Shown here: positions 4,460 to 63,818 of the stretch, piece after piece
Layout of the letters: each line of letters begins with the position of its first letter
How positions within the stretch are numbered: position 1 is the first letter of the stretch
From: Thermocrinis sp.
GTDB lineage: Bacteria; Aquificota; Aquificia; Aquificales; Aquificaceae
Direction: 5' to 3'
DNA length: 64,000 nt
Assembly: GCA_020833645.1 (NCBI GenBank)
Contig: JAJHRQ010000002.1
Span: forward strand, 82,280 to 146,279
The notes under the pieces: generated by a model
The model's database searches: none
What the model saw: only the letters and a program-made list of their open reading frames with translations
Told to the model about the DNA's origin: nothing
Translations under genes and position numbers: made by a program

Positions 4460-4475
4460 AATAATATGCTAAACC

Positions 4476-5933
4476 ATGCGGGTGGTTATAGTCGCCAGTG
4501 AAAGCGCCCCGTATTTGAAGACGGGAGGGTTGGGAGATGTGATCCACTCCCTTTCCAAAGCCCTTACAAAGCTTGGGCATACAGTTTATGTAATAATGCC
4601 AAAGTACGCCAAGCTAAGAAGGAGCTTAGAGAGAAAGGTAAAAGAGGGCATAAAAATATACATTGACCATCAGTGGAGAGAGTTTGACCTTTATGAAGAC
4701 ATTCTGGACCATGTTAGGTATTTTTTCATAGACTACAAGCCTTACTACGGGAGGGAATATGCCTACGCACCTCCAAAGGGAGATTACTACGACAATGCCC
4801 TGAGGTTTGGATTTTTGTCTATGGCAAGTCTTCAGGTTATAAGGGAGTTGGAGCTAAAGCCAGAGGTTATCCATACCCACGACTGGCACACGGGAATTTT
4901 GCCCTTGTATAAGTCCTTGTATTACCCAAACTTGGAGAGAGTTCTCGTTGTATTTACCATCCACAATGCCATGCATCAGGGCATTTTTGATGCCCATTTT
5001 CTACCCGCTTTGAACCTACCATGGGAGGTATTCCACCCTTACGGGGGCATAAAGTTTTACGGAAAGATAAACTCTATGAAGGCGGGGATACTGTTCTGTG
5101 ATGTTCTGACCGCAGTTAGCCCATCCTATGCGGAGGAATTGAAAGCTTACTGTTATGGTTTGGAGGGTGTTATAAGAGAAAAGAAATACTTTTTTGGTAT
5201 TCTCAATGGCATAGATTACGATGTGTGGAACCCGGAAAAGGACGAACTTATCTTTGCCAGATATAACATTAAGAGCTTTAAAAAGGGTAAGTTGAAGAAC
5301 AAGACCCGCCTTAAGGAGACCTTTGGATTGAAAACTGAAAACTACAGACCTCTCATAGGCATAGTGGCAAGACTTACCGCCCAGAAGGGCTTCGACCTAA
5401 TATTTTCCTCCGCAGAGAAGATTGTGAAAGAGGGCTTTGATATGTTGGTTTTGGGTTCTGGCGAGGAAAAATACCAAGAGATGCTCGTAGAGTTGAGTAA
5501 AAAGTTTCCGAATAACATCAAAGCTCGCATCAAGTACAGCGAAGAGCTTGCCCACAAGATATACGCGGGTGCAGATATGTTCTTGATGCCATCCCTCTTT
5601 GAACCTTGCGGGATATCTCAGATGATCGCCATGCGGTATGGAACTGTGCCGGTGGTTAGGTGGGTGGGTGGGCTGAAGGACACTGTCAAGGACTTCTTGA
5701 AGGACCCAGAAAACGGCACGGGCTTTACCTTTGAAAACTTTGAGCCAAAGGACATGATGTCTGCCCTGCTTCGGGCAAGGGTATTTTATGATATGGAGTT
5801 TTGCAACTCGGAGAAGGTGTGGTCTGAAATTGTAAAGCGGTGTATGAGGCAGGACTTTTCTTGGGAAAGGAGTGCCAGAGAATACGAGTCCGCCTACACC
5901 ACCGCAAGGGTGCTGAGGTTCTATGATAGTTGA
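4476..5933 (+). CDS. glgA: Glycogen synthase
   Basis: [61 protein letters not shown]. Confidence 0.95.
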
Positions 5934-6393
5934 GCTCAAAGAACTTTTGGAGCTTTTGGAAAAGGTCCGGGGAAAAAAGAAAATAGTTTTCACCAACGGT
6001 TGTTTTGATATACTCCATGCGGGGCATGCGGATTATTTGAACAAGGCAAAATCCCTGGGGGATATTCTGGTGGTGGGCATCAACTCGGATGCCTCCGTGA
6101 GAAGAATAAAGGGTGAAAAAAGACCCATACTGCCACAGCAGATGCGTGCCTATCTTTTGGACAATCTAAAGCCGGTGGATTATGTGGTGGTCTTCGAGGA
6201 AGACACACCTTTGGAACTGATAAAAGCCATAAAGCCGGATGTTTTGGTGAAGGGTGCAGACTGGGATTTAGAACGCATAGTAGGGGCTGACTTTGTGCTT
6301 TCCTACGGCGGAAGGGTGGAAAGGATACCCTTCTCCTTTGATATATCCACCAGCAAGGTTGTTGAAAGGATTTTGGACCTTTACTGCAAATGA
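5923..6393 (+). CDS. rfaE2: D-glycero-beta-D-manno-heptose 1-phosphate adenylyltransferase (RfaE domain 2 type)
   Basis: [45 protein letters not shown]. Confidence 0.92.
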
Positions 6394-6512
6394 TATAATT
6401 TTTTAACGATGCTCGCTCAAAGGTTAAAAGCTCCTTCTCAAGACAACCCTTCAAATAGCACACAAAGGGATTTTATCTCTGTGTTCACAGACGAAAGCGA
6501 GAAATAGAAGCT

Positions 6513-8186: not shown

Positions 8187-8204
8187 GCATAAAATTAAAA
8201 AGCC

Positions 8205-8846
8205 ATGAACCTTCAGGAGATAATTATAGCCATCCCTGCCATTATGGTGGCAGTTATATTTCATGAATACGCCCATGGATGGGTTGCCTACAAGATGGGA
8301 GACAGCACCGCCAAAGAGTATGGCAGGCTTACTATAAATCCTATACCTCACATAGACCCTCTGGGGACTATTATTTTTCCAGCAATACTTCTTTTGCTGG
8401 GCTCACCTATACTCTTTGGTTGGGCAAAGCCCGTTCCCATAAATCCCTTCAGGTTTAGGGACCTTAGGATTGGCACCTTTTTTGTGTCCATTGCGGGCGT
8501 TTCCATGAACTTGGCTTTAGCCTTTCTCTTTGGGCTTCTCTTCAGATTGTCCCATGGGGGATATTTGGACTTTCTGGGTTCTGCTGTCCTTGAACCTCTT
8601 GAGATTTTCTTTGTGAAATCAGTGATGATCAACACCGTCTTGGCAGTTTTCAACATGGTGCCCATTCCTCCCTTGGACGGTAGCAGGGCTGTTATGAGCT
8701 TTTTTTCCTTCAGATACTGGGAGCTTTTTTACAGGTTTGAAACGTATGGCTTTTTGGTGATAACTCTCCTTCTCTTTACTGGCATCCTGCAAAAGATCAT
8801 TGCGCCTCCCATACTTTTTCTTTACAGTTTATTTTTAGGAATATGA
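8205..8846 (+). CDS. Site-2 protease family (M50) membrane metalloprotease
   Basis: HEYAHGW zinc motif, NMVPIPPLDGSR. Confidence 0.9.
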   Translation: MNLQEIIIAIPAIMVAVIFHEYAHGWVAYKMGDSTAKEYGRLTINPIPHIDPLGTIIFPAILLLLGSPILFGWAKPVPINPFRFRDLRIGTFFVSIAGVSMNLALAFLFGLLFRLSHGGYLDFLGSAVLEPLEIFFVKSVMINTVLAVFNMVPIPPLDGSRAVMSFFSFRYWELFYRFETYGFLVITLLLFTGILQKIIAPPILFLYSLFLGI

Positions 8847-9748: not shown

Positions 9749-9781
9749 TTTTGCTCCTCCTCTTTATTAAAATATAAGCCT

Positions 9782-10432
9782 GTGATTTTGGTTGAAAACG
9801 TTCACAAGGTTTATCCCGACGGCACAAGGGCATTAAAGGGTGTGAGCTTTAGGATAGAAAAGGGGGAATTTGTGGGCTTGATGGGACCTTCTGGCTCAGG
9901 CAAAAGCACCCTATTGCACATCATAGCTGGCTTGGACAAGCCCACAGAGGGAAGGGTACTGGTGGATGGAAAAGACATCACCCGTATGAACGAGGACCAA
10001 CTGGCAGAGTTCAGAAAGAACAATATAGCCCTTATTTTTCAGTTTTACTACCTTTTGGAGGACTTTACCGTCTTAGAAAACCTCGTATTAATAGGACAGT
10101 TGGCTGGGCAAAGGGAACCCAAAAAGAGGGCCTTGGAGCTTTTGAACTTTCTGAGGCTTTCCCACAGGGCTAACCACAAACCCTATCAGCTATCGGGGGG
10201 AGAACAGCAGAGGACGGCCATAGGTAGAGCATTGATGCTAAAGCCTAAGCTCATACTGGCGGACGAGCCAACTGGCAACTTGGATTTAGAAGAAGGTAAA
10301 AGAATTTTTGAGCTCTTTTTGGAACTCAGAGATAAGGAGGGTATCACCTTCTTGATTGCAACCCACAACCAAGAAATGACAAGGTATTTTGACAGGGTTT
10401 TGAGGATCAGGGATGGACTTTTGGAAAATTGA
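9782..10432 (+). CDS. ABC transporter ATP-binding protein, LolD-like
   Basis: GLMGPSGSGKSTLLHIIAGLD, LSGGEQQRTAIGRAL, ADEPTGNLD; no permease gene adjacent. Confidence 0.9.
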   Translation: MILVENVHKVYPDGTRALKGVSFRIEKGEFVGLMGPSGSGKSTLLHIIAGLDKPTEGRVLVDGKDITRMNEDQLAEFRKNNIALIFQFYYLLEDFTVLENLVLIGQLAGQREPKKRALELLNFLRLSHRANHKPYQLSGGEQQRTAIGRALMLKPKLILADEPTGNLDLEEGKRIFELFLELRDKEGITFLIATHNQEMTRYFDRVLRIRDGLLEN

Positions 10433-11246
10433 CAGAATTCTTTTGCAATTCCTTGAGGAGGACATAGGCCACGGGGATATAACCACTGAGGGCGTTTTCA
10501 GGGGAGAAAGGGCTCGGGCGGTAATGGTGGCAAAGGAAGGGGGAATCTGTGCGGGGCTACCTTTTTCCGTTAGGGTCTTTGAACTTTTGGGTGGTGTGAA
10601 GGTTCTAAAATCTATGGCGGAGGGGGAACGTTTTAAAAGGGGGGATGTGATTTTGGAGCTGGAGGGTCCTGCGGATGTGCTTTTGAAGGGGGAAAGGGTT
10701 GCCCTCAACCTACTTCAAAGACTGAGTGGTATAGCAACCCTAACGGGGGAGTTTGTGAAAAGGCTTGAAGGTACAAAGACCAAGCTCTTGGACACAAGAA
10801 AGACAACGCCAGGGCTTAGATTCTTTGAAAAGTATGCAGTGAGGGTGGGTGGTGCCACCAACCATCGCTTCGCCCTTTACGATATGGTCCTCATAAAGGA
10901 CAATCACAAAAGGGTGGCGGGTTCCCTCTCCGAGGCGGTGAAAAGGGTAAGGGAAAGGCTTGGACCTGCATATAAAGTAGAGGTGGAGGTGGAAAGCTTG
11001 CAGGAGTTGGAGGAAGCCCTTGCCTGCGAGGTGGATATGGTGATGCTGGACAACTTTGGCTTGGAGGAGGTGAGACAGGCGTTGAAGCTCATAAAGGGAA
11101 GGGTGAAGGTGGAGGTCTCCGGCAACATAACCCTTGAGAATGTCAGAGATTACGCCTTGGAGGGTGTGGATTACATCTCCACCGGTGCCATTACACACTC
11201 CGCCAGATGGGTGGATGTTAGTATGAATATAATAGAAGTGTTATGA
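10413..11246 (+). CDS. nadC: Nicotinate-nucleotide pyrophosphorylase (carboxylating)
   Basis: EDIGHGDITTE, LLDTRKTTPGLR, VGGATNHRFALYDMVLIKDNH. Confidence 0.96.
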   Translation: MDFWKIDRILLQFLEEDIGHGDITTEGVFRGERARAVMVAKEGGICAGLPFSVRVFELLGGVKVLKSMAEGERFKRGDVILELEGPADVLLKGERVALNLLQRLSGIATLTGEFVKRLEGTKTKLLDTRKTTPGLRFFEKYAVRVGGATNHRFALYDMVLIKDNHKRVAGSLSEAVKRVRERLGPAYKVEVEVESLQELEEALACEVDMVMLDNFGLEEVRQALKLIKGRVKVEVSGNITLENVRDYALEGVDYISTGAITHSARWVDVSMNIIEVL

Positions 11247-16178: not shown

Positions 16179-17356
16179 AATTTCATCTTCTCCCTAACTT
16201 CCTCCAAGGTTTGCCTTGCGGTCTGCCTTGCTTTTTCGGAGCCTTCCAAGAATATGTCTTTGAGCTCCTTTAGGGAACCCTCCACCTGTGCCCTTTTTTC
16301 CCTTATGGGCTCCAGAAAGGCATTCAAGCCCTCAAACATGAGCCTTTTACAATCTACGCATCCAAGGGCACCGCTTTTGCAGTCCGCCTCTATCTGTTTT
16401 GTCTGCTCTGGATTGGTGAAGATCTTATGGTAGGAGAAGACGGGGCAAAGGTGGGGTCTGCCGGGGTCTCCTTTTCTGAGCTTTTGGGGGTCTGTGAAGA
16501 ACTTCATCACCTTTTGTTGGACTTCCTCTTTGCTGTCCGCAAAGTATATGGCGTTGTTGTATGACTTGCTCATCTTTCTGCCATCCGTTCCCAAAAGCCG
16601 GGGCGTTTCCGTTAGCAGTGCCTTGGGTTCTGGAAAGACCTCTCCGTAGAGCTGGTTGAACCTTCTGGCTATCTCCCGGGTAAGCTCTATGTGAGGCAAT
16701 TGGTCCTCTCCCACAGGCACCGCCTCCGCCTTGTAGATTAGTATATCCACCGCCTGCAAAACAGGATAGCCCAGAAAGCCGTAGGTGTCTGTATCGTAAA
16801 AGTCCCTCTTTGACACATTTAGCTTACTTAGGATCTCCGGTTCAAGTATGCCATCAAAGACAGCCCTCACAAAGGCTTCTGAAATAGTGTCCAAAAGGTT
16901 CTCCTCCAAGGCTTCAAAGTCCTCCACCTTGTAGGGTAGCTTAGCCAAAAACTCCTTTACCAGGTCCCTTATCCCTCCTTTAAAGCTGAGTTCTAAGTCG
17001 GCGATCTTTAAAAGGTTGTACTTCATATCCTTGTAGGTAGGATTCCACTCAAGCCAACTTTTTGGTGTGATCATAGAAAAAATCAGAAAGAGCTCCAGCT
17101 CCTCCTTTACATGGGATTGGATAAAGAGCACGCTTTTGTTTGGGTCTAAGCCCAAGGCGAGCCAGTCTATCATCACCTGCTCAATGTTTTCCTTTATCTG
17201 CTCTGTGTTTTTGTAGCCGGTGGTCAATGCGTGCCAGTCTGCGATCATGTAATAGGTTTCGTGGTCCTTTTGGAGTTCTATCCAGTTTTTTATTACGCCA
17301 AAGTAATGTCCCAGATGGAGCTTTCCCGTCGGTCTCATACCGCTCAAAACTCGCAT
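16175..17356 (-). CDS. trpS: Tryptophanyl-tRNA synthetase
   Basis: RPTGKLHLGHYFG (HIGH), GRKMSKSYNNA (KMSKS). Confidence 0.96.
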   Translation of the reverse strand: MRVLSGMRPTGKLHLGHYFGVIKNWIELQKDHETYYMIADWHALTTGYKNTEQIKENIEQVMIDWLALGLDPNKSVLFIQSHVKEELELFLIFSMITPKSWLEWNPTYKDMKYNLLKIADLELSFKGGIRDLVKEFLAKLPYKVEDFEALEENLLDTISEAFVRAVFDGILEPEILSKLNVSKRDFYDTDTYGFLGYPVLQAVDILIYKAEAVPVGEDQLPHIELTREIARRFNQLYGEVFPEPKALLTETPRLLGTDGRKMSKSYNNAIYFADSKEEVQQKVMKFFTDPQKLRKGDPGRPHLCPVFSYHKIFTNPEQTKQIEADCKSGALGCVDCKRLMFEGLNAFLEPIREKRAQVEGSLKELKDIFLEGSEKARQTARQTLEEVREKMKL

Positions 17357-17363: not shown

Positions 17364-18035
17364 CTATTTTAAACATTCCCACAAAAATCTAAGCGTTGTC
17401 CAATAGCCGGATGCATAAATTCTTCTGATTTCCCATTTACTCGGGCTTTGGGCATAGGTTCCCTTTATGGTAGTAAAGGCATATTGATAACCTGCCTTCT
17501 TTACCATTTCTACTACTTCCCTGTTGTGGTCTCCGTATGGATAGCAAAAGCCCTTTACCTCAACGCCGAGCTTGTCTTCCAAAAGCTTCTTTGAGTCCTC
17601 TATTTCTCTGCGTGCCTCTGGGGGAGGGATTTTTGTCAGGAAGGGATGGGTGAGGGTGTGCGAACCAATCTCTACACCCTCCTTTACAAGGAAGGAAAGC
17701 TCCTCCCAGTTCATTATGGGTTTTATCACGTTCACCTTTCGGTAGTCCCAACGGTTAAACTGCCCTACCAACTTGGCGGGCACAAAGACTATGGCATGAG
17801 CCTTTAGGGCTTTGATAACCGGGAAGGCGTTTTCCAAAAAGTCCCTGTAAGCGTCGTCAAAGGTAAGTAGCACACCTTTGCCCGTAGGTTCAAGCTCTTG
17901 GGGCTTAACAAACCTGAAGTTAAGTCTGTTTAAGAGATTTAGCCAACGCTTGAACTTTTCTGGTTTAACGTAGAGGGATTTCAGCCGGGCATTCTTCGGT
18001 GGTTCTCCCACATTGTGAAACATAAGGACTTTCAT
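17364..18035 (-). CDS. Polysaccharide deacetylase family protein
   Basis: LLTFDDAYRDF, EIGSHTLTHPFL, GFCYPYGDHN. Confidence 0.92.
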   Translation of the reverse strand: MKVLMFHNVGEPPKNARLKSLYVKPEKFKRWLNLLNRLNFRFVKPQELEPTGKGVLLTFDDAYRDFLENAFPVIKALKAHAIVFVPAKLVGQFNRWDYRKVNVIKPIMNWEELSFLVKEGVEIGSHTLTHPFLTKIPPPEARREIEDSKKLLEDKLGVEVKGFCYPYGDHNREVVEMVKKAGYQYAFTTIKGTYAQSPSKWEIRRIYASGYWTTLRFLWECLK

Positions 18036-21492: not shown

Positions 21493-22107
21493 ATGGCAAA
21501 GGCTGTTTAAGAGCCTAAGATGAAAGCCTTTACCGTCAAACTCCAACAGGCTTATGCCCGTGTTGTCCATGTGAATGTTCCATAGGTTGTTCAAGGTTAT
21601 CCCGGTTGTCAAACACACGATGGCGTGCAGTGTGCCCCCATGGGCTACTACGCATACCCTTTGGTGTGGCAGTTTCTTTAAGTCCTCCAAAAAACTGCTC
21701 ACCCTCCTTTCAAACTCTCCCATATCCTCTTGGGTAGGTAAGGGGTGGCTGACTGGGTCCCTCAACCAGTTGGTAAAGGTTTCCCTGTGCTCTTCCAGCA
21801 AACTCCAAAAGTGTTTGCCTTCAAAGTCTCCAAAGGACATCTCCCTGATCCTTTCATCTACCTGTAGGGGAACTTCCAAAACATCGCTTATGGTCTGGGC
21901 GGTTTTGTATGCCCTCCTTTGGGGCGATGTGATCACAAGCTCTATGCCTTTGTCTTTGAGTGCTTCTGCGCAAAGGCGCGCTTGAACAAAGCCTAAGGGG
22001 GTTAAGTCACTGTCAAGCCTTCCCTGGAATATTCCCTTTTCGTTAGCTTCGCTTTGGGCGTGCCTTACGAGAAAGATGAGCTTTTTCATTTTGAAAAGCC
22101 CTCGCAC
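21487..22107 (-). CDS. Histidine phosphatase (phosphoglycerate mutase-like) family
   Basis: FLVRHAQSEANEKGIFQG, VVAHGGTLHAI. Confidence 0.92.
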   Translation of the reverse strand: MRGLFKMKKLIFLVRHAQSEANEKGIFQGRLDSDLTPLGFVQARLCAEALKDKGIELVITSPQRRAYKTAQTISDVLEVPLQVDERIREMSFGDFEGKHFWSLLEEHRETFTNWLRDPVSHPLPTQEDMGEFERRVSSFLEDLKKLPHQRVCVVAHGGTLHAIVCLTTGITLNNLWNIHMDNTGISLLEFDGKGFHLRLLNSLCHL

Positions 22108-22175
22108 CCGGGACGGCGGGCTTACCGTTGCTCCCTTTCGGGCCTGGCGGGGTTCACCCTGTCCCGTTGCGAGGG
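22099..22175 (-). ncRNA. ffs: Small bacterial signal recognition particle RNA (4.5S type)
   Basis: Minus strand CCCTCGCAACGGGACAGGGTGAACCCCGCCAGGCCCGAAAGGGAGCAACGGTAAGCCCGCCGTCCCGGGTGCGAGGG: conserved GGTGAACC...AGGCCCGAAAGGGAGCAACGGTAAGCC core, closing stem CCCTCGCA/TGCGAGGG. Confidence 0.92.
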
Positions 22176-22178
22176 TAG

Positions 22179-24685
<2,507 letters not shown>

Positions 24686-24694: not shown

Positions 24695-26893
24695 ATGCAA
24701 ATCATATACCTCCTGCCAGAAAGTCAGTTTAGCATAAACCCACCTTCCGGCAAGGCAGTTTTCCGAAGGGAAGGGGAAAACCAAAGGCGGAGTCTTGAGC
24801 TTATCCCATCGCGGGAGATAGACCCAAACATTCCCTATCCCCTTTTGAACCCCCTTCAGACCCTTTTTTATCACACCTACGAAAAGGGTAATGCCATAGT
24901 CTCTGCGCCTACCTCCGCGGGCAAGAGCTTACTCTCTTACCTGTTCTTTAAAAAGTTCAAAGGAAGAAAGGCGTACACCGCACCCACAAAGGCACTGGTC
25001 TATGAAAAGGCGGTGGAGTTAAGGAGGTTCTACAAAAGGGTGGATGTTAGGACAGGGGATCGGGTGGTGGAGAACTTCAAGGAAGTATCCGGTGAGCTGG
25101 TGGTATGCACCTACGAGAGCTTGGTTCAAGCCTTCAGGAACTCCGCCCGGTGGGTAAAGGAGCTTTCCGCGGTGGTTGTGGATGAGGTGCATCAAATAAA
25201 AAAGCGTTGGGTGGTGGAGGAGCTTTTAGCATACTGCCTAAAGGAGGGCATTTCTATTCTTGGGCTTTCTGCCACCATACCGGGTGTGGAAGAGCTCGCC
25301 CTTTGGACCTCTTCACAGCTTTTAATAAAAAGCCAGTGGAGACCGGTGCCCCTTGAGAGGTTCTATCACTCATTGCGAGAATTTATGGAAGTCTGCGAGG
25401 AGGACAAAGTAGCCTGCAAACTTTGGGACGCCCTTTGGAAGCTTAGCAAGCCCGACGAGAAGACCATACTCTTTGTGCCCCAAAAGAAGCTGGGCTGGAA
25501 GCTCTTAGAAATTGCCGCCAAGGAAAAGGTGGGCATCTTTAACCAAACACTGCCCTTTGAGGTGGATGAAGAAAGACCTCCAGAGATTGCCTTCCACAAC
25601 GCGGATGTGCCAAAGGAAGAGAGGGAAGCCATTGAGAAGGAGTTCAGAGAAGGAAACCTCCGACTTCTCATAGCCACGCAGACCTTGGCCTATGGGGTAA
25701 ACCTGCCCGCAGACAGGGTGCTCATAATGGTAAGGGTCTTTAAAAACAGAAAGTGGATGTGCATACCCGATGAGCTGGACATTCTACAGATGGAAGGCAG
25801 GGCAGGAAGGCTAGGACTAAAGGAGAAGGGCTATTCCCATCTGATCATTCACGGGGGCAGTTCAAGCCTTGTGGAGGACCTCATAGCAAAGACCTTCTCC
25901 CAGGGTTTTAAGACAGCCATTCAGGAAGAAAAAAACATAGATGTGCTAAGCTTTTTTATCCTACTTGGCTATCTTTATGAAGGCTTTAACTACCAAAGGT
26001 TTTTGGAAAAGTTCTACTCCTTCAGTCAAGTGTCAAAGAGGACAATAGAGAATGTAGAAAGATTTCTCAGGCAAAGGGCATACCTTGAGAGAAATTCCCT
26101 GACACCCAAAGGGCTATTGTGTGTAAGAAGCGGGCTACCTCCCACCAAACTGGAGGAGTTCCTGCGTAGGCAATATATTAGCCTGCCCACTCTGGCGGTT
26201 ATCAGACCTTTACTTTACACCAAACGCTTTGATACACTCTACGACTTTGTGGAAAAGGGAGAGAGCTTTGAAGAGGATGATCACTACGTTAGGGGCATGC
26301 TGGTAAGCTGTGGTCAAAACTGCTTTGAGGACAACACCCATCAGTTTCTCTTTTATACGGAGGGTCTGACCTTTAAGTATCCCAACCTGCGCCATCCACC
26401 GGGGGAATTTTCTTATCTTGGCACAGATGCACTGCACCTTCTAAAGCTTCTGTGGGAGCTCAGAAAAAGCGGCTTTTTGCATGGGGATGATCAAAAACTT
26501 CTTTCGATTGCCCACTCGGTAAAGTTTGGGCTGAGCGAAGATTGGGCCAGTTTGGCGGGAGTGAAAGGCATAGGACATCTCAGGGCAAACCTACTAAAGC
26601 GCACACTAAAGCGGGAAGGTTTGAAACCTCCCGCCCTATTTGAAGAAACCGCCCATCTTTTGGAAAAGCTAAAGCCCTTAAAAGAACTAATGGTGGAAAT
26701 CCTTATAACAGAGAGAAAAGTGGAAAAACCAAGGGCACTGGAGGAGGTCAAAAGACTCTTTAAAATCCTTGAAAACAACGCAAAGGGCAGGCTTATAGAC
26801 GATAGGATACTCTTAATGTATGGCTTTTTGCACTTTGGAGTGGATGTTCTGAGGATGAAGAAGGAGGAAATCATAAAGGAGCTTGGTTTATAA
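24695..26893 (+). CDS. Ski2/Hel308-like superfamily 2 DNA/RNA helicase
   Basis: SAPTSAGKSLL (Walker A), VVDEVHQIKK (DEVH), LGLSATIPGVEELA, ATQTLAYGVNLPADRV, QMEGRAGRLG; C-terminal LAGVKGIGHLRANLL HhH-like. Confidence 0.88.
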   Translation: MQIIYLLPESQFSINPPSGKAVFRREGENQRRSLELIPSREIDPNIPYPLLNPLQTLFYHTYEKGNAIVSAPTSAGKSLLSYLFFKKFKGRKAYTAPTKALVYEKAVELRRFYKRVDVRTGDRVVENFKEVSGELVVCTYESLVQAFRNSARWVKELSAVVVDEVHQIKKRWVVEELLAYCLKEGISILGLSATIPGVEELALWTSSQLLIKSQWRPVPLERFYHSLREFMEVCEEDKVACKLWDALWKLSKPDEKTILFVPQKKLGWKLLEIAAKEKVGIFNQTLPFEVDEERPPEIAFHNADVPKEEREAIEKEFREGNLRLLIATQTLAYGVNLPADRVLIMVRVFKNRKWMCIPDELDILQMEGRAGRLGLKEKGYSHLIIHGGSSSLVEDLIAKTFSQGFKTAIQEEKNIDVLSFFILLGYLYEGFNYQRFLEKFYSFSQVSKRTIENVERFLRQRAYLERNSLTPKGLLCVRSGLPPTKLEEFLRRQYISLPTLAVIRPLLYTKRFDTLYDFVEKGESFEEDDHYVRGMLVSCGQNCFEDNTHQFLFYTEGLTFKYPNLRHPPGEFSYLGTDALHLLKLLWELRKSGFLHGDDQKLLSIAHSVKFGLSEDWASLAGVKGIGHLRANLLKRTLKREGLKPPALFEETAHLLEKLKPLKELMVEILITERKVEKPRALEEVKRLFKILENNAKGRLIDDRILLMYGFLHFGVDVLRMKKEEIIKELGL

Positions 26894-26901
26894 TCTTTTT
26901 C

Positions 26902-27219
26902 ATGAGCGTCCTTGTCTTTGTAAGCATGACGCCTTTGGGCAAAGGTGAAAGCGTAAGCCAGTATGTGGCAAGGGTGGTGGATGTGGTGGACAAATCTGGG
27001 CTACCCTACGTGCTCACACCCATGGGCACCATCATTGAGGGTGAAAGCTGGGATGAGGTGATGGATGTCCTCAAAAAAGGCTTTGAAGAGCTAAAAAAGG
27101 ACTGCCCAAGGATCTCCATAACCATGAAGATAGACTACAGAGAGGGCAAATCTAACAGACTCGTATCCAAGGTCAAATCGGTGGAGGAAAAGCTGGGAAG
27201 GGAAGTAAAGAAGTTGTGA
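26902..27219 (+). CDS. MTH1187-family thiamine-binding protein
   Basis: SVSQYVARVVDVVDKSGLPYVLTPMGTIIEGESWDEV. Confidence 0.85.
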   Translation: MSVLVFVSMTPLGKGESVSQYVARVVDVVDKSGLPYVLTPMGTIIEGESWDEVMDVLKKGFEELKKDCPRISITMKIDYREGKSNRLVSKVKSVEEKLGREVKKL

Positions 27220-29530
27220 GCATAAAAAAGCTGAGCAAGGAAGATTTAGAGTATGGCTACAGATACGATTTTTCTACGGAGGATGTTTTTCCAGAGGAGG
27301 TCTTTCTAAAACAGGACAGGGTAGAAAGGGTTTTTGATTTAGCTTTGAACACTAAACAGGAAGGCTATAACATATTCGTTTCTGGCCCAGAGAGTATAGG
27401 AAGGACCACTTATGCCCTACGTCGTCTGAAGGAAAAGGCCCAAAAGGAGCCGGTGCCCGAGGATATATGCTACTTCTATAACTTTGACAATCCACTACGT
27501 CCAAAGTATCTTCTACTGCCCGCTGGCGTTGGCAAAGGTTTTGTGGAGGAGGTGGATAGAGCTATAGAGTCTTTAAAAACTGAACTGCCGAAGGCTTTTG
27601 AAGGCAAAGAGTATGAGGAGGAGGTTGCCAAGATAACCAAGGAGGCGGAAAAGAGAAAGGAGGAAATACTGGAGAACTTGGCTAAAGATGCGGAGGCGAA
27701 GAACTTAGGGGTTGTGGTTACCCCTATGGGTATAAAGCTGTTGCCCTTGGTGGGAAGGAGGATCGTGGAGGAGCATGAGCTTTTTGCCAATCCAAGGCTT
27801 CAGGAGACTTACCAGAGGGATCTTTCTGAGTTTGAAGAACGCTTCAGGGATTATATAAGGGCCCTAAGGGAGGAGGACCATAAGCTGGCGGAAAAGTTAA
27901 ACGAGCTGAAGGAGAAGGTGGCTACCTTTGTGGTGGAAGTTTTCAAGGTACGATGAGCGATACTGCCACGAGCCACAGGCGGTTGAGTTTTTAAACAGGT
28001 TGAAAAAAGAGATAGTAAAGAATGTAGACCTGTTTCTTATGTGGAAGAGCGCTGAAGGGAATACCCAGATGCTCGCCAAAAGGTTCAAGCTTAACTTGAT
28101 CGTGGATAATTCCTCCCTAAATGGTGCGCCGGTGATATACGAGGAAGTTCCTTCCTTTCAGAGCCTCTTTGGAACCATATCTTACACCATGGAGATGGGG
28201 GTGCTCTATGCGGACCATACCAGCATAAAAGCAGGAAGTCTCCATAGGGCAAGGGGTGGATACCTTGTGATAAGGGCTTCTGACCTTTTGAAAAATTACA
28301 TGCTTTGGGATGCCTTCAAAAAGGCGATAATGCACTCCAAAGTGCGTATCCCTGGCTATACGGTGGAGAATTTTCTGCTACCCTATGTGGGCGTAAGCCC
28401 TGAACCTGTGCCACTTAACGTAAAGGTTGTTTTGATAGGGGACTATCTGACGTACCAGCTTCTTTCCTTTTATGACCCTGAGTTTAACAGACTTTTTAAG
28501 GTCAAGGCGGAGTTTGACCCTGTTGTAGACTTGGATGAAGAAGTCTACGAAAAATTTCCCAAGCTTGTGAAGAAGATCCTTCAGGAGGAGGGAATTAAAG
28601 ACCTGGATGGTTCTGCCCTGTCTGAGCTCTTTAAGTACGCGGTCATGCTCTCGGGTAGTAAAAAGAAGATAAGCGTGGTTATGGGGGATATCGTGGATGT
28701 TATCAGGGAGGCAAACGTCTTTTCTGAAGGGGAAAGGATAATAAGGGGAGAGCATATTAAAAGGGCAATAGAATAGAAGCTCTACCGTTCTAACCTTTTG
28801 GAGGAAAAGATAAGGAAAGCCATCGTGGAAGGAAAGATTCTGTGTACTGTGGATGGTAAAAGGGTAGGACAGGTAAATGGTCTCAGCGTCTACGAGCTTG
28901 GAGATATAAGCTTTGGTAAGCCTACGAGGATCACTGCATCTGTTTATCTTGGAGACAAAGGTGTAGTAAGCATAGAAAGGGAGGTTGCCCTAAGCGGTCC
29001 TATCCATTCAAAGGCGGTTCTAACCCTGAGTGGATACTTGAACGGCAAATACGGAAAGGATATGCCCTTGCATCCTTCTTGCACTATTACCTTTGAGCAA
29101 TCTTACGAAGAGGTGGAAGGGGATAGTGCCTCGGTAGCTGAGCTTTTGGCGATCCTTTCTGCCCTCTCTGTGGTGGAGATAAGGCAAGATATTGCGGTTA
29201 CAGGCTCCGTGGATCAGTTTGGAAATGTGCAGCCAGTGGGAGGCATAAAAGAAAAGGTGGAAGGATTTTACAGGGTCTGTAAGGCAATGGGCTTTACTGG
29301 GACGCAGGGGGTTCTTTTGCCCTCGCGAAATTTTGAAAACCTTGTTCTTTCGGACGAGGTTATTGAAAGCGTACAAAAAGGAGAGTTCCACCTTTATCTG
29401 ATGGATACCATAGATGATGCCATTGAACTTATGACGGGTTTAAAGGCCGAAAAGTTTCACAGGTTGGTAAAGAAAAGGCTTGTTGAGTTCTTCAAAAGGG
29501 CAAACGCCAAGGGAAAAGGGTTAAAATCTC
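27216..29530 (+). pseudogene. Lon-like (archaeal LonB-type) ATP-dependent protease, reading frame broken
   Basis: ORF 27216-27956 (GPESIGRTTYALRRL) to ORF 27928-28776 by frameshift near 27937-27950, then in-frame TAG 28774-28776 (AIE*KLYRSNLLEEK), then protease domain with EGDSASVAELLA and GGIKEKVEGF; ORF continues out of register over fabD to 29685. Confidence 0.82.
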
Positions 29531-33276: not shown

Positions 33277-33352
33277 TGTCAAGTTGTAAAAAACGCGAGG
33301 ACCCTTAACCTTCTCGGCGGGTAGAAGGCTGGCTGTGGTAAAATACATGTAA

Positions 33353-34792: not shown

Positions 34793-35358
34793 GGCTTCTC
34801 TCCATAGACACTTCCTTTTCCTTTTTCAATCTATCTGTGATAGAAGATGACAACCTATCAATGCTATACTACGAGGATAGCAAAAAGAAGAGCTTGGAAC
34901 TTTTGCCCACCCTCTTAAACAAACTCGGCATAAAACCCGAGGACTTTGACGCCTTTGCCCTCTCGGTGGGTGTTGGCTATACTACCCCCTTAAGGATAGG
35001 CATAACCTTTTTAAAGACCGTAGCCTTTTTGACCCAAAAGCCTTTATACACCTACGAGAATTTAGAGCTGATGCTCAGGTATGTGCCTGTGCAACCACCA
35101 AAGACTGCCCTTTTGAGGGTGAGCAGTCATATCATCTACAGGGTTCAAAATCAGGAGGGCATAGGTCCCATAAGGCGTTGGAAAGGGGAACCTTTGGAGG
35201 GCACCACCATTGCCCTCAGAAGCCACTCTATAGACTTTGCGGACCTACAGCTTGATTTTTTCCCTTTTTCCGCCTACGGTGGGCTACTTTCCTACGAAAG
35301 GTTAAAGGCTGGAGAGCCCGGGGTGGACCTTTTTAGCTTGGAGCCGTGTTATATTTAA
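34789..35358 (+). CDS. tsaB: tRNA t6A biosynthesis protein TsaB-like
   Basis: [39 protein letters not shown]. Confidence 0.8.
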
Positions 35359-41012: not shown

Positions 41013-41141
41013 AGCCTTATATATTCTAAGCCAAAAAAGCCTGATGGGTACGGTTTAATAATCATCCACCAAAGGTATCACTGTCCCAGTGAGCAAAAAA
41101 TTTCATAGGTTCTAAGCCCACATGCATTAAACTATTTTTTC

Positions 41142-45987: not shown

Positions 45988-46012
45988 GAGAAAATTATAA
46001 AAAAGGTTTCCT

Positions 46013-51212: not shown

Positions 51213-51220
51213 GGGATGGA

Positions 51221-51232
51221 TATTTTAAAATA
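51221..51232. promoter_or_regulatory. Palindromic bidirectional -10 element between mreB (-) and proS (+)
   Basis: TATTTTAAAATA; TAAAAT lies 9 nt before the ATG on each side. Confidence 0.55.
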
Positions 51233-51240
51233 ACTTCCCT

Positions 51241-52953
51241 ATGCGATGGAGTAAATATTTTTGGTATACACTAAAGGAAGAGCCAGCAGATGCGGAGGCA
51301 GTTTCCCACAAACTACTGCTAAAGGGTGGATTTTTGGCTCAGGTTGCCTCCGGCATTTACGAATACACACCACCCGCCCTCAAGGTTCTAAGGAAGATAG
51401 AAAACATAGTTAGAAAGGAGATGGACAGGAGCGGAGCCCAAGAGGTCCTTTTGAGCGTCTTGAACCCCTCTGAACTTTGGAAGGAAACTGGAAGATGGGA
51501 TTTGTACGGCAGGGAACTTTTTAAACTGCAGGACAGACACGGAAGGGAATACTGCCTTGGACCTACCCACGAGGAGGAGATCACAGACCTCTTTAGGAGG
51601 TTCATAAACTCCTACAAAGCCCTGCCCCTGATCTTGTATCAAATACAGGTAAAGTTCAGGGACGAGAAAAGACCACGCTTTGGCTTGATTAGGTCAAGGG
51701 AGTTTTTGATGAAGGACGCTTATTCTTTTGACGAAGATGAGTTCTCTGCCATGATCTCCTATGAATCTATGAAGTTTGCTTACGAGAGGATCTTCAAAAA
51801 GCTCAGGCTAAACACCCTCTTGGTAGAAGCAAGCGTGGGTGCCATTGGAGGGAAGATGTCCCACGAGTTTGTGATCCTTACCGATTACGGAGAGGCAAAG
51901 GTAGCCTTTTGTGAAAACTGTGGATACTCCGCCAACGCAGAGATTGTGCCCCTCCCAAAGCACAAAGAAGAGACAGGGGAAGAAAAGCCCATGGAAAAGG
52001 TCTATACGCCCAACACCACCACCATTGCCATGCTTTCCGATTATCTAAAGGTGCCCGCTTACAAGATTCTGAAGGCACTCCTTTACGTAAAAGGGAACGG
52101 AGAAAGGGTAATGGTTCTCATAAGGGGAGACAGGGAGGTGGATGAGAAAAAGCTTGAAGCTCTCTTTGGCACGGAGGATTTTCGCTTAGCTTCCGAGGAA
52201 GAGATAAAGCAGTGGCTTGGCACCACAAAGGGCTTTGTGGGTCCCTTCAACCTGCCAGAGGATATAAAGGTCCTTTGGGACAACTCCACCTATGGCGTAA
52301 AAAACATGGTGGTAGCCCTAAACGAGCCAGATTACCATTACATAAACGTAAATCCCGGAAGGGACATCCAATACGGAGAGTTTGTGGATGTTTGCGAGGT
52401 GGAAGAAGGAGACCCATGTCCCAAGTGCGGTGGGCCTCTTAGAGTAGGGAAGGCCCTTGAGCTTGGACACATATTCCTTTTGGGAACAAGATACTCAGAA
52501 CCTATGAAAGCCTTGATAAAAGACCGCTTTGGTCAGGAAAAGCCGGTGGTCATGGGATGTTATGGCATTGGTATATCCCGATGCCTTTCTGCCATAGTGG
52601 AGCAGTATCACGACGAGAAGGGGATAAAGTTTCCTACGGTGGTGGCACCCTTTGAACTAAACATCGTCTGCGTCAACACCTCCGACGAGACCCAAAGGTC
52701 TGTGGCGGAAGGACTTTATATCAAGGCTATGGAGATGGGCTTGGATGTTATCTATGACGATAGGGACGAGAGCCCAGGCTTTAAGTTTGCAGATGCAGAA
52801 CTCTGCGGATTTCCTTACATTTTGGTAGTAGGGAAAAAGGCAAAGGATGGAAAGGTGGAGCTGTGGAAAAGACACACTGGCGAGAGAATAGACCTTGCGG
52901 TGGAGGATGCCCTCCTTTATGTTAAAGAGCTCATAGAGAAGGATAAACAGTGA
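51241..52953 (+). CDS. proS: Prolyl-tRNA synthetase
   Basis: LLLKGGFLAQVASGIYEYTPPALKVLRKIE, GPTHEEEITDLFR, GCYGIGISRCLSAIVEQ. Confidence 0.97.
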   Translation: MRWSKYFWYTLKEEPADAEAVSHKLLLKGGFLAQVASGIYEYTPPALKVLRKIENIVRKEMDRSGAQEVLLSVLNPSELWKETGRWDLYGRELFKLQDRHGREYCLGPTHEEEITDLFRRFINSYKALPLILYQIQVKFRDEKRPRFGLIRSREFLMKDAYSFDEDEFSAMISYESMKFAYERIFKKLRLNTLLVEASVGAIGGKMSHEFVILTDYGEAKVAFCENCGYSANAEIVPLPKHKEETGEEKPMEKVYTPNTTTIAMLSDYLKVPAYKILKALLYVKGNGERVMVLIRGDREVDEKKLEALFGTEDFRLASEEEIKQWLGTTKGFVGPFNLPEDIKVLWDNSTYGVKNMVVALNEPDYHYINVNPGRDIQYGEFVDVCEVEEGDPCPKCGGPLRVGKALELGHIFLLGTRYSEPMKALIKDRFGQEKPVVMGCYGIGISRCLSAIVEQYHDEKGIKFPTVVAPFELNIVCVNTSDETQRSVAEGLYIKAMEMGLDVIYDDRDESPGFKFADAELCGFPYILVVGKKAKDGKVELWKRHTGERIDLAVEDALLYVKELIEKDKQ

Positions 52954-55169: not shown

Positions 55170-56349
55170 CGCCTAAATGCTTCATAACCGTTTCCATATC
55201 CTTGTCTCCCCTGCCGGAGAGGTTGAAGATCACTACGTCATCCTTGCTTAGCTTACTGGCTATTTCCACCACCTTCAGGACTGCGTGGGCTGGCTCCAGG
55301 GCAGGGATGATCCCCTCAAGCCTTGAGAGGAGCTTAAAGCCCTCCAGGGCTTCTTGGTCTGTAGCATAAACATACTCTGCCCTTCCGATCTCAAAAAGGT
55401 ACGCATGCTCTGGACCTACCCCCGGATAGTCAAGCCCCGCAGAGATGGAGTGGGTGGTCAAAATCTGCCCCTCTTCGTCTTGCAAAAAGAAGGACTTCAT
55501 TCCGTGCAAAATTCCCACCTGCCCTGCGTTAATGGATGCAGAATGCTTGCCCGTCTCAAGCCCAAGACCACCCGCCTCCACGCCCACAAGCCTAACCCCC
55601 TCATCCTCCACAAAGGGATAAAAAATTCCCATCGCATTGGAACCACCGCCCACACATGCAACCACCGCCTTGGGCAGTTTGCCCTCCTTTTCCAAAATCT
55701 GCTCCTTCGCCTCTTTACCTATCACGCTCTGAAAGTCTCTGACCATCATGGGAAAGGGATGGGGTCCCACCACAGAGCCTATTATGTAATGGGTAGTCTC
55801 CACGTTGGCAACCCAATCCCTCAGGGCTTCGTTTATGGCATCCTTTAGCGTCCTGCTTCCACTTTTGACTACCCTCACCTCCGCACCCAAGAGCTTCATC
55901 CTAAACACATTCAGCCTCTGCCTTTGGGCATCCTCCTCTCCCATATAAACCACACATTTCAAACCAAGCAAAGCACAGGCAGTGGCAGTAGCCACCCCAT
56001 GCTGACCTGCACCAGTTTCTGCGATTATTCTGTTTTTTCCCATCCTCTTGGCAAGCAGAGCCTGTCCGAGGGTGTTGTTGATCTTGTGGGCACCCGTATG
56101 CAAAAGGTCCTCCCTCTTTATGTATATCTTTGCCCCTCCCGCATACTCGGTCAGGTTCTTGGCAAAGTAAAGGGGCGTAGGTCTGCCCGCAAACTCTCTA
56201 AGGTAATACTCAAACTCTTGCCAAAAGCTTGGGTCCTCTTTAACCTTCTGGTATTCTTCTTCAAGTTCCTCTAAAGCGTACATCAAAGTCTCCGGCACAA
56301 ACCTTCCACCAAAGTTTCCAAAGTATCCTCTCTCGTTTGGCACCTTCAT
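55159..56349 (-). CDS. trpB: Tryptophan synthase beta subunit
   Basis: [42 protein letters not shown]; start at [11 protein letters not shown] rather than ORF start 56481. Confidence 0.96.
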
Positions 56350-56389
56350 AGCAAGGCTAATTATAAGGTATGTGGGTATAATATAGCCT

Positions 56390-59300
56390 ATGAATGCCCT
56401 AAAAAAATTCCAAGAGCTATTGAGGGACATTTTCCAGTTTGAAAGTTCAGACCTTGACTTTGGCATATACAGAATTCTCAACTACAAACGGGATGAAGTA
56501 GAAAAGTTTATAAACCAAAAACTGCCACAGATAATAGAGAATGCCTTTCAAAAGCACAAGAAAAACTTATCTGAGGACATACACGAAGAGTATGAAAGGG
56601 TAAGGAGGGAGATAGTAAGAACCCTCGGAGAAGATGCCTTTACACCAACCGGAGAGTTAAACCCTGTCTTTGCAAATACTAACATAGGACAGGAATATTT
56701 GCGAATAAAAGAACAAAAAGAGCTTTTAGAAAAGCTGGAGGAGATAAAAGAACAAGTTTATAACGACCTTTACTCTTTCTTCTCAAGGTTTTACGAAGAT
56801 GGAGATTTTATCCCACAGTACAGGTATTCAAAGGAGCCAAAATACAGCATACCCTACAACGGAGAAGAGGTAAAGCTTTACTGGGCAAACGCAGACCAAT
56901 ATTACATAAAAACGGGCATACTCTTTAGGGACTATACCTTTAGGGCAGGGGACAAAAAGGTAATCTTTAGGACCGTGTCCGCACGGGAGGAAATAAACAG
57001 CAACAAGGCAACAAAGCAAAGGTATTTTGTCTTGGATGAAGAGCCAATCCAAATAGACCAAGAAGGCATAATAATTAGATTTCAATACAGAGAACTGGGT
57101 GAAGAGGAGATAAGGCTTTACAAGGATAACGGAAATGGTCAGGAAATAGAACAAGAGGAGGAAAACGGAGGAAGGGGAAGAGGTATAAAACAGGAGAAGA
57201 TAAACGAGAAGATTTTTGAGAAATTAGAAAAAGATTTAAGGGAACTGTTCTCTAAGATAAAGGAGCTTCAGTATGCAATTGAAAGCTTACTAAAGGAACA
57301 AAGAAACCAACAACCCTTACTCCTTTATCACATAAACCGATTTACCGCAAAGAACACAAGGGACTACTTTATCCACAAAAACCTAAAGAAGTTTTTAATG
57401 GGACAGCTTGATTACTTTATAAAGTCTGAGGTTTTGAACTACGAAACCCTTTCGGAAGAAAAGTATTTAGACAAGCACATAACAAGGGCTAAGGTTGTTA
57501 AGGAAGTGGGAGAAAAGATTATAGACTTTTTGGCACAGATTGAGGATTTTCAGAAAAAACTTTGGGAAAAGAAAAAGTTTGTTATACAAACCCATTATGT
57601 GATTACCTTAGACAGGATTAAGGAATGGGCGGGCGAGGAGTTTTACAGGGAAGTTTTAAAAAGGGTTTTACAAAACAAAGCACAGCTTGAGGAGTGGGAA
57701 AGGCTTGGCTTTGGAAGGTTTGAAAGGGAAGAGGATTTAGAGGGCAAAAAGCTACCCATTGACACGGGATACTTTGATGAGAGGTTTAAGTGGGAGCTTT
57801 TGGAGAGGATAAGCGAAAAGGTTAATCTGGATGATGCACTGGATGGGCTTTTGATAAAGAGCGAAAACTGGCAGGCTTTGAATACGATTTTGAATAAGTA
57901 TAAAGAAAAAGTCCAAACCATATACATTGACCCACCCTTTAACAAGGAGCAAGACGCAGACTATTTATACAATGTGAAGTATAAGGACTCCACTTGGATT
58001 GCAATGCTTGAAAATAGACTAAGGCTTGCAAAGGAGCTTTTAAACGAAAGGGGGAGCATTTTTGTTAGGTGTGATTACAACGGGAATATGTATGTTAGGC
58101 TTTTGATGAATGAGATTTTTGGAGAGGAGAATTTTAGGAATGAGATTGTGGTTAATAGAATTGTTAAAAAAGGTTTTGGAGCTGATAGATTCCCGACAGC
58201 TATAGATTCACTTTTTTATTTTGTGAAGTCAGATAAGTTTCTCTTCAAGGGATATAGAAAACTTTTGGATAAACCAAAAGAACCTTGGTGGCATGATATG
58301 ACTTCTATGACTGCTGGTAGAAGAGGAGGAGAACCGAGAATTATATTTGGTAAAAAACTATATCCACCTCCAGGGAGAGCTTGGACCTTTAGCCAAGAGA
58401 AAATAGAACAGATGGAAAAAGAGGGTAGAATCAGAATTAGGTGTGGTGTATGCGGATACACACATTATAGTGGTAAATGGGACAAATGTCCAAAATGTGG
58501 AGAGGAAAAAGAAAGGGTTGATTATTTAGTTATTACTGATGGAAGAGAACCTATTGATAATGATTGGACAGACATTCCTGGTTATTCCTTTGGCTGGGAT
58601 TTCCCAACCGAAAACTCCGAAATCCTTCTCAAGCGTGTTATAGAATCCACATCCGAAGAAGGCGACTTGGTTATGGACTTCTTTTTGGGAAGTGGGACAA
58701 CAACCGCGGTAGCCCATAAGCTTAAAAGAAAATGGATTGGTGTGGAGATGGGGGAGCATTTTTGGACTGTGGTTATGCCGAGGATGAAAAAGGTTTTAGC
58801 CTACGATAAATCTGGCATTTCCAAAGAAAAGGATGTTAAAGAAAAATACAACGAGCGGACTGCGGGGGGATTTTTTAAATACATCATTCTTGAACAATAC
58901 GAAGACACCCTTGATAACCTTGAGCTAAAGGAAAGCAAACCACACAAAGACTTTTTCAAAGATGACTACCTTATTAAATACTTCCTTGAGCTTGAAACAA
59001 GGGATGACCCACACCTTTTGAACATCTCAATGTTAAAAGACCCATACAACTACAAACTAAAGGTTAATCTTTCCGAAGTGGGAGAGCCAAAAGAAATGGC
59101 GGTGGATGTGATAGAGACTTTTAACTACTTGCTTGGGCTAAAGGTAAACAAATTAATGCGTAAAGAAAAGGAAGGGAACACATACACGTTTGTATTGGGA
59201 GAAAGGGAGGGCAAAAGTGTGGCGGTGGTTTGGAGGGTTTATTCGGAGGAATGGACGGAGGAGGATTACAAAAAGGACAGGGATTTTATAGAGGAGGTTT

Positions 59301-62400: not shown

Positions 62401-62450
62401 AGGATCAGTATTGGGCTGAGAAGTTTTTTAAAAGGGTTTTGCATGCATAA
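59418..62450 (+). CDS. Type III-like restriction subunit: DEAD/DEAH helicase with C-terminal PD-ExK-like nuclease
   Basis: MATGSGKTLIMH, FVDEGHKGKRSEEKKW, EYSATFGQ, QLFGRGVRLKGKN; C-terminal YPDFILWIREKNGNIIYIVFVEPKG. Confidence 0.88.
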   Translation: MNIEKYLVLNKYFLRLFGEEDNRGLLRYLKSVEEGERDGLTNFAINLMTKEGVRLPKDELKRYDQNIQEYLRKINQSRPERIRLKYFQYLAVLFTEIFLDRLKNRKWEFLAELNDFVISNSLEKKVRETVGEFSEEDLKKLAFWMATGSGKTLIMHINYLQFLRYKPFEPDNILLITPNEGLSKQHYEEMQKSGIPCRLYSESGSSSGRREHEVLIIEITKLAENTRGRGRSIHISAFEGKNLIFVDEGHKGKRSEEKKWAKLRDKLIEKGFAFEYSATFGQILDKEDILKEYAKAIIFDYSYKYFYLDGYGKDFWVLNIKNSKIDDFTEMAFCANLLDFYQQLLVYEEKRRIAREHNIEKPLWIFVGSTVSGKNIDSDIVKVLDLVRNSLNRDWLKERIDKILNGEFKNEKGEDIFRHKFERLRRGFDLEDLYEKVFNGRGKLRVLEIKRAEGEFGLRLGENAYFGVVNIGDVSAFKKLLKEKGFEIEQDAISDSLFDSIKRENSTINILIGSKKFIEGWDTWRVSCMGLLNIGKGEGPQIIQLFGRGVRLKGKNLSLKRSGNPEISTLETLKIYGISADYIGKFLSAIKKEEVEFEEIKVPVRVLNREIWKDFPYPTKDESKKFERERVLCLRLDTISASMNLVPSIAVYMAQERREDVQSSEVETETASKSIADLVNIELFDWTRIYTELLEFKKERGYLNLSFDLETLKEILKERCKVIVPNDFKVKDLEDLKNLENMAISLLKSYIDKFYKREKGRFEKDIITYKPAGKQLSLFRLASDKVEYYTLTVPAKEQKLIEKIKEIVENMDALLDEHKEKDILPRIVIDNSVFVPLLLEKEGINISPPALNRGEKRFLEGLRDYLDKHPEILDKYHIVLLRNEAREGVGFMLDWGEFYPDFILWIREKNGNIIYIVFVEPKGLKMLGDLLNNEKIIFLSEGLRETLRKQYENWQVEVKGFVLSTTPYEELRRGQASEKSKSQEEYEEKNILFLEDQYWAEKFFKRVLHA

Positions 62451-62492
62451 CATAAATAGAAAATCCAAGCATCTTGGCTTATTATATTTTTC

Positions 62493-63818
62493 ATGCAGGA
62501 GTTGAAAAGCTACGCAGAGGAGAAGGTAGAAAAGGCAAGGAAGGTCCTTAGGATTTTGAGTTCCATTCCCACCGAGGTGAAAAACCGCACCCTTCTGAGG
62601 GCGGCGGAGCTTTTGGACAAGAGGCGAGAATACATAAAGGAAGAGAACAAAAAGGATATAGCCTTTGCAGAATCTCAGGGGCTATCTCCCGCTTTGCTGG
62701 ACCGACTGCTTCTGAACGACAAGAGGATTGACGGTATGATAAAGGTTCTAAGGGATGTGGCAAGCCTGCCGGACCCAGTGGGAGAGATCACCCGCATGTG
62801 GCAACTTCCCAACGGGCTAAAGGTAGGAAGGATGAGGGTGCCCTTGGGAGTGATATTCATCGTTTACGAGGCAAGACCAAACGTAACCATAGAGGCGGGC
62901 TCTCTGTGCATAAAATCCTCCAATGCGGTAATCCTAAGGGGTGGAAAGGAAGCCATAAACTCCAACAGGGCTTTGGTGGAAATCCTCAGGGAAGCATCTG
63001 CCATGGAGGGCTTTCCAGAAGAAGCCATCCAGTTTATAGACAGACCCGAAAGAGAGATTGTCTGGGAAATTTTGCAGATGGAAGGCAAAGTGGATGTTGC
63101 CATTCCGAGGGGTGGGGAAAGCTTGATAAGGGCTGTGGCAGAAAAGGCAAAGGTACCCGTCATAAAGCATTACAAGGGGGTTTGCAACATATACGTGGAT
63201 GAGGAAGCAGACTTAGAAAAGGCTTACCACATAGTCTACAACGCAAAGGTTCAAAGACCTTCCGTTTGCAACGCAGTGGAAAATCTGATAATACACCGAA
63301 AGATCCTAAACACCTTCTTCCCAAAGATGGCATACATCTTAGGAAAGGCTGGGGTGGAGCTCAGATGCGACGAGGATAGTTTAAAGGTTATAAAGTCTGA
63401 CCCAAGGCTCTCCTTTGTAAAGGCAGTGCCCGCCACAGAGGAGGACTACTACGAGGAATTTTTGGACCTAATACTTGCGGTAAAGGTGGTGGATAGCTTG
63501 GAGGAGGCTGTAGACTTTATAGAAACCTACGGTTCCAAGCACTCGGATGCCATAATTACCGAAAACTACACCAAGGCGATGAAGTTTCTTACAGAGGTTG
63601 ATTCTGCAGCGGTTTATGTGAACGCATCCACAAGGTTTACCGACGGCAACGAGTTTGGGCTTGGTGCGGAGATGGGCATATCTACCGATAAAATCCACGC
63701 AAGGGGTCCCATGGCTCTGGAGGAACTAACCATCCAGAAGTTTATCATCTTTGGCAACGGACAGGTTAGGGATAACTTTAAAGTCCCAGAAGAGCTTTTA
63801 AAGGAGTGGAAGGACTGA
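62493..63818 (+). CDS. proA: Glutamate-5-semialdehyde dehydrogenase (gamma-glutamyl phosphate reductase)
   Basis: [56 protein letters not shown]. Confidence 0.97.

Follow-up and report, generated by a model that had tools for sequence, protein, structure and literature searches.

Leaderless genes led by a TA signal were predicted in 207 of 953 bacterial genomes by Zheng et al. 2011 (PMC3160421), and that paper gives 20.7–32.4% leaderless genes for two of five Aquificae genomes, with Aquifex aeolicus as a figure example. In Deinococcus-Thermus, a -10 element lies next to ~30% of open reading frames (ORFs), an arrangement that was tested in Deinococcus by mutation and reporters; it requires a defined -10 distance, while a -35 element merely enhances it (PMC12340547, 2025). 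From E. coli and Salmonella, Warman and colleagues described bidirectional promoters in which a pseudo-symmetric -10 engages polymerase either way (PMC12825309, PMC10268837), the divergent start sites of E. coli being mostly 18 bp apart, and also 10 and 23 bp (PMC12825309). For Aquificales, logos of the Shine-Dalgarno (SD) and Pribnow sequences were presented without mention of leaderless mRNA (PMC4227106); the same paper refers to assistance in differential RNA sequencing and to A. aeolicus deep-sequencing results that were unpublished. Here we report on -10-like hexamers located 6–10 nt before start codons in a stretch of 64,000 nt from Thermocrinis sp. (contig JAJHRQ010000002.1, positions 82,280 to 146,279; hereafter the window). 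Judged from sequence, these hexamers are very probably the -10 elements of housekeeping-sigma promoters that make leaderless mRNAs, and one symmetric -10 would be able to serve two divergent genes.

The elements resemble the TA-led genes of Zheng et al., in which TAtaaT ~10 bp before the start replaces the SD (PMC3160421), as well as the -10-adjacent promoters of Deinococcus-Thermus, which belong to another phylum and whose report does not use "divergent", "bidirectional" or "Aquif" in its main text (PMC12340547). The preliminary description of the window had implied that the arrangement was new for Aquificales; as TA-led leaderless genes of Aquificae had already been described by Zheng et al. 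2011 (PMC3160421), this doubt is answered and the novelty falls away. Our data confirm the 2011 prediction for Aquificae and supply testable coordinates. New with respect to 2011 are the distribution among families, including families that lack the signal, the -10s shared by divergent pairs and the fusions with stop codons, which go beyond the available portion of that paper (PMC3160421).

Hexamers at a fixed distance from start codons

We used a 279-kb sample of the window's own genome and samples from 17 other genome sets (60–400 kb per genome), and start sites and transcripts were inferred from sequence throughout. Genes were called with a home-made hexamer coding model without any upstream information. 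Strong -10 variants were counted by their distance to the start codon, the gap being the number of nt between hexamer and start codon, and the chance level was taken from 200 dinucleotide shuffles; genes with a strong -10 at gap 6–10 are called leaderless-type. By our own reading, we take the window's family (f1) to be Aquificaceae, f3 to be Hydrogenothermaceae and f4 to be Desulfurobacteriaceae.

In the own genome, 69 of the 262 genes had a strong -10 at gap 6–10, against 9.0 ± 2.7 in the shuffles (maximum 17), and the plain pattern TANNNT was present in 88 of the 262 against 29.4 expected. A close relative (G002) gave a similar picture (37 of 166 genes against 5.7 in shuffles). The peak was five positions wide, with the first T at -12 to -16, and the rest of the interval from -45 to -1 was mostly near background.

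The preliminary description would have withdrawn its reading had motif density been no higher than AT content predicts; both the shuffles and a composition control showed a higher density. Among 1,524 Aquificaceae genes, AT content was 63.3% at -16..-7 and 62.9% at -27..-18, and TAAAAT occurred at -16..-7 in 112 genes versus 13.7 in control bins (8-fold) and TATAAT in 86 genes versus 15.7 (5.5-fold). Both hexamers exceeded every permutation of the same letters, the next for TATAAT being TTATAA (53 genes), which is able to overlap it. AT-richness as the cause of the hexamers was ruled out by this permutation control, and the hexamer observation itself is confirmed as real.

All 17 hexamers listed earlier were present in the window at their given gaps, and we identified an eighteenth element, upstream of infB on the minus strand, that had been missed:

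4462..4467, plus strand: TAATAT, gap 8 to the glgA start at 4476 (starch synthase domain, Pfam)
8190..8195, plus strand: TAAAAT, gap 9 to the M50 peptidase gene at 8205 (Pfam Peptidase_M50)
9768..9773, plus strand: TAAAAT, gap 8 to the ABC ATPase gene at 9782, GTG start (sequence, Pfam)
11228..11233, plus strand: TATAAT, gap 9 to the glgP-like gene at 11243 (Pfam Phosphorylase)
17366..17371, minus strand: TAAAAT, gap 9 to the trpS start at 17356 (Pfam tRNA-synt_1b)
22179..22184, plus strand: TATAAT, gap 9 to metG at 22194 (sequence; best structure 2csx)
26889..26894, plus strand: TATAAT, gap 7 to the gene at 26902 (Thiamine_BP family, Pfam)
29522..29527, plus strand: TAAAAT, gap 9 to fabD at 29537 (acyl transferase, Pfam)
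33339..33344, plus strand: TAAAAT, gap 8 to gatA at 33353 (sequence; best structure 3h0l)
35350..35355, plus strand: TATATT, gap 7 to the HerA-like gene at 35363 (HAS-barrel, weak match)
41023..41028, minus strand: TAGAAT, gap 10 to the infB start at 41012 (sequence, Pfam)
41128..41133, plus strand: TAAACT, gap 8 to the gene at 41142 (UPF0227 hydrolase-like, Pfam)
45994..45999, minus strand: TATAAT, gap 6 to the gmk start at 45987 (guanylate kinase, Pfam)
51222..51227, minus strand: TAAAAT, gap 9 to the mreB start at 51212 (MreB, Pfam)
51226..51231, plus strand: TAAAAT, gap 9 to proS at 51241 (class II tRNA synthetase with editing domain, Pfam)
56360..56365, minus strand: TATAAT, gap 10 to the trpB-like start at 56349 (PLP enzyme, Pfam)
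56377..56382, plus strand: TATAAT, gap 7 to mod at 56390 (N6/N4 methylase, Pfam)
62480..62485, plus strand: TATTAT, gap 7 to proA at 62493 (aldehyde dehydrogenase, Pfam)

The solved structures that best matched MetG and GatA (2csx and 3h0l, respectively) are both Aquifex aeolicus proteins, which bears out the assignment to Aquificales. Inspection of the sequence by eye put the start of the glgP-like gene at 11243 (ATG), whereas the gene caller had chosen 11261. A small bacterial SRP RNA was also found at 22093–22178 on the minus strand, immediately upstream of metG (Rfam RF00169, 60.9 bits).

Start codons, SD sequences and the length of the leader

The preliminary remark that few of these genes have an SD held: an SD was found in 3 of the 106 leaderless-type genes versus 105 of the 322 others (P = 8e-12), a P value that, like those below, overstates independence because the sampled species are related. 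When the SD was defined by four-letter cores, the counts were 6 of 106 and 151 of 322, respectively (P = 8e-17), and the odds ratio for an SD in the presence of the motif was 0.06–0.07 with the two definitions. Thus, the classical leadered layout, a -10 followed by a leader with SD, is not that of the motif genes, with their gaps of 6–10 and few SDs. TTG was the start codon in 1 of the 224 motif genes versus 60 of the 832 others (P = 8e-6), the remaining 223 having ATG or GTG, and a pyrimidine preceded the start codon (position -1) in 71% of motif genes versus 53% of others (P = 7e-7). Both the near-exclusion of TTG and the pyrimidine are to be expected of transcripts whose first base (+1) is the purine in an ATG or GTG start codon. 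The position just upstream of the hexamer was T in 53%, and TG was found at -3 and at -5 upstream of it in 15% each, versus ~5% elsewhere. The match to the -35 sequence TTGACA was at most weakly elevated (mean 1.78 at spacer 17 versus ~1.6 elsewhere). Together, the upstream T and TG and the at-most-weak -35 indicate promoters dominated by the -10.

The leaderless reading is supported by the position of the motif, the absence of SDs, the restriction to ATG and GTG starts, the pyrimidine at -1 and the concentration on operon-leading genes described below. In the mechanism that we propose, a housekeeping sigma (sigma-A/70) -10 would place the start of RNA polymerase at, or 1–2 nt from, the first base of the start codon; the resulting mRNAs would be leaderless, with their AUG or GUG read by the ribosome at the 5' end without SD contact. 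Promoter information would lie mostly in the -10 and in the upstream T and G/TG, with a -35 that is weak at best, and operon-internal genes would keep an SD or another form of internal initiation. A pseudo-symmetric -10 would drive two divergent genes, as polymerase would bind it, and transcribe from it, in either orientation. Because such a leaderless core needs only ~20 bp, a promoter could incorporate the stop codon that ends the preceding gene, or one -10 could suffice for two genes.

Four points weigh against this reading. Firstly, mapped transcription start sites of Thermocrinis were not found in the literature searched. Secondly, our simple caller gets some starts wrong, and placed those of glgA and glgP too far downstream. 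Thirdly, some gaps in another genome (G001) reach 11–12, which would mean a leader of 2–5 nt. Finally, there are many SD genes, and the anti-SD tail is intact in a relative (G016), so the leaderless mode is one of two. That tail was also intact in f3 and f4 genomes and bS1-like genes were present across the phylum; the leadered pathway has therefore been kept. A sequence of the own genome that matches GGATCACCTCC was considered as 16S rRNA and rejected as a chance occurrence in coding DNA.

The first of the alternatives accepts the hexamers as real -10s, and supposes that starts scatter 2–6 nt upstream of the start codon and give very short SD-less leaders, not truly leaderless mRNAs. Polymerase can vary its start position, and gaps of 11–13 do occur, mainly in G001 (14 counts at gap 11 and 6 at gap 12). 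The gaps are centred on 7–9, however, near the usual spacing between a -10 and its start site, and the near-exclusion of TTG and the preference for a pyrimidine at -1 would both follow if the start codon were itself +1; we regard such short leaders as unlikely.

Shared -10s, stop-codon fusions and operon context

Leaderless mRNA and bidirectional transcription would meet in the divergent pair formed by mreB (minus strand) and proS (plus strand). The 28-bp gap between their start codons (51213..51240), identical in G002, lies around TATTTTAAAATA, an exact 12-bp palindrome; within it, one TA step is common to both TAAAAT hexamers. We propose that this gap may act as a single bidirectional leaderless promoter, and GGCTTTATAATTTTACCAC is, alongside it, a candidate shared promoter sequence. 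The conservation of the mreB-proS pair was seen as far as the nearest species only; in G009, TAAAAT is retained before proS at gap 6, although the next gene upstream lies ~260 bp away.

Short divergent pairs were frequent in the family. In Aquificaceae, 45 of the 210 divergent pairs had 12–30 bp between start codons versus 5 of 105 in f3–f5 (P = 6e-5), with at most 44 of the short pairs independent because mreB/proS contributes once from the own genome and once from G002. The motif was found at gap 6–10 on both strands in 26 of the 45, on one strand in 17 and on neither in 2. When the intergenic letters were shuffled 1,000 times, both-strand cases numbered 0.9 on average (maximum 5), and none was found among the 5 short pairs of f3–f5. 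The opposing hexamers overlapped in 23 of the 26 both-strand pairs, most commonly by 2 bp, and an overlapping reverse-strand -10 was present in 57 of the 69 leaderless-type genes in short pairs versus 114 of the 262 other leaderless-type genes (P = 5e-9).

Where start codons are only 12–30 bp apart, a promoter located between them has hardly any room for a leader, and this distance would fit a divergent start-site spacing of roughly 10–25 bp if the mRNAs are leaderless. The pairs are similar to Warman-type promoters in having a pseudo-symmetric -10 on both strands, and by our geometry the 2-bp overlap corresponds to the 23-bp class of E. coli (PMC12825309). The reports on E. coli and Salmonella say nothing of leaderless mRNAs (PMC12825309, PMC10268837), and our searches, with most subscription papers outside their coverage, found no literature joining leaderless mRNA with bidirectional promoters. 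As the Aquificaceae start codons sit about where Warman-type start sites would be, the promoter core would be the whole intergenic region. On these grounds we consider it fairly likely that about one fifth of the divergent pairs in Aquificaceae represent a minimal bidirectional leaderless unit of 12–30 bp, with a single symmetric -10 and two mRNAs that each start at AUG. If so, the balance between the two genes, neither of them with a leader, would depend on which way RNA polymerase sits on the shared -10, and the leaderless mode would determine how short an intergenic region can be in Aquificaceae. Such pairs would unite leaderless mRNA and a bidirectional promoter in a very small unit, and would show in a natural setting whether two protein-coding genes, including housekeeping genes such as mreB and proS, can be expressed from a single symmetric -10.

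Other divergent genes of the window were arranged differently. The trpB-like gene and mod have 40 bp between their starts and two separate -10s, and the ABC ATPase gene at 9782 has a divergent neighbour with an SD (9748, minus strand), the two starts being separated by 33 bp. Outside the phylum, one short divergent pair was found on Thermus thermophilus pTT27 (cobT and a histidine phosphatase gene; L252:42512-42537), its annotated starts lying 26 bp apart and TANNNT occurring on each strand; a single pair is too few to judge generality among leaderless bacteria.

Among genes that follow a same-strand neighbour, the hexamer was often fused with the end of that neighbour. In 47 of the 138 same-strand leaderless-type genes of Aquificaceae, the hexamer overlapped the neighbour's stop codon (44 TAA and 3 TAG), and in another class, 21 of the 138, it was entirely within the upstream coding sequence. 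For same-strand gaps of 7–13 nt, the motif was present in 47 of 108 Aquificaceae genes versus 5 of 66 in f3–f5 (P = 2e-7). In the window, letters 3–5 of the hexamer before gene 26902, TA[TAA]T, are the TAA stop of the upstream gene (end 26893), the stop codon of the gene upstream of trpS overlaps its hexamer, and the hexamer of the HerA-like gene lies within the preceding gene (end 35358).

The motif was most frequent in genes with a divergent upstream neighbour (49%), followed by genes located 6–40 nt after a same-strand neighbour (38%); the frequency was 12% at larger distances and ~6%, little above chance, in genes that overlap or abut the upstream one. The earlier statement that several hexamers lie inside upstream genes is partly right: it holds for the hexamers wholly inside and those containing a stop codon, while overlapping or abutting genes carry few of them. 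The subdivision of operons, suggested on the same basis, is plausible for genes ~6–40 nt from their neighbour and not for overlapping genes. Our results suggest that, in Aquificaceae, the -10 ought to be taken as a marker of start codons in annotation and operon prediction.

These contexts also bear on two further alternatives. The hexamers might be AU-rich mRNA elements bound by the ribosome or bS1, with the real promoters further upstream; this possibility was raised for the -10 AT bias of non-SD genes (PMC5397173), and bS1-like genes occur in Aquificaceae. Against it, the specific letters TATAAT and TAAAAT carry the signal, not AT content, the motif is concentrated on operon-leading genes, and in short divergent pairs the other promoter would need to sit within the neighbouring gene, all of which makes the idea very improbable. 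Equally hard to credit is that the elements function but are minor, most mRNA coming by read-through from upstream promoters: that could apply to genes 6–40 nt after a same-strand neighbour, which often carry the motif, but about half of the divergent first genes carry it too, where read-through from the direct neighbour cannot reach, and motif genes go without an SD.

Distribution in the phylum and among orthologues

The leaderless-type -10 was found in part of the phylum. The excess over shuffles amounted to 14–23% of genes in eight Aquificaceae genomes from five genera, obtained with a stricter motif than the 20.7–32.4% of Zheng et al. (PMC3160421). The sister family f2 had an excess of 12%. 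In the genomes of f3 (four), f4 (three) and f5 (one), in which SDs are common, it was zero or below. In f3, the best sampled of these three families and one rich in SDs, the -10 peak was found at a gap of ~32–34, corresponding to a leader of ~25 nt. In particular, the -10 of metG was at gap 7–12 in most Aquificaceae genomes examined versus 27–38 in most f3 genomes. Because the switch between leadered and leaderless modes falls between families of one phylum with similar genome sizes, the evolution of the initiation mode becomes tractable.

Within Aquificaceae, a Hydrogenobaculum-like genome (G015; 35% GC, small sample) had an excess of 2%, possibly a loss of the leaderless mode. In metG of this genome, TATATT is still present at gap 7 despite the near-absence of an excess.

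Orthologues of leaderless-type genes kept the motif in 7 of 7 cases in G002. In G001, whose orthologues have a mean identity of 80%, the motif was found at gap 6–10 in 5 of 15 leaderless-type genes versus 1 of 30 other genes, and at gap 6–12 in 10 of the 15 (our count from the sequences). One of the 15 had switched to an SD leader, while all 19 of the 19 SD genes were unchanged. At one G001 locus (L205; G001:C2, about 263407), the encoded protein is 96% identical to its orthologue in the own genome, where the gene is leaderless-type. The G001 gene has its -10 further upstream and a leader with AGGAGG, so that the mode of initiation appears to have switched recently.

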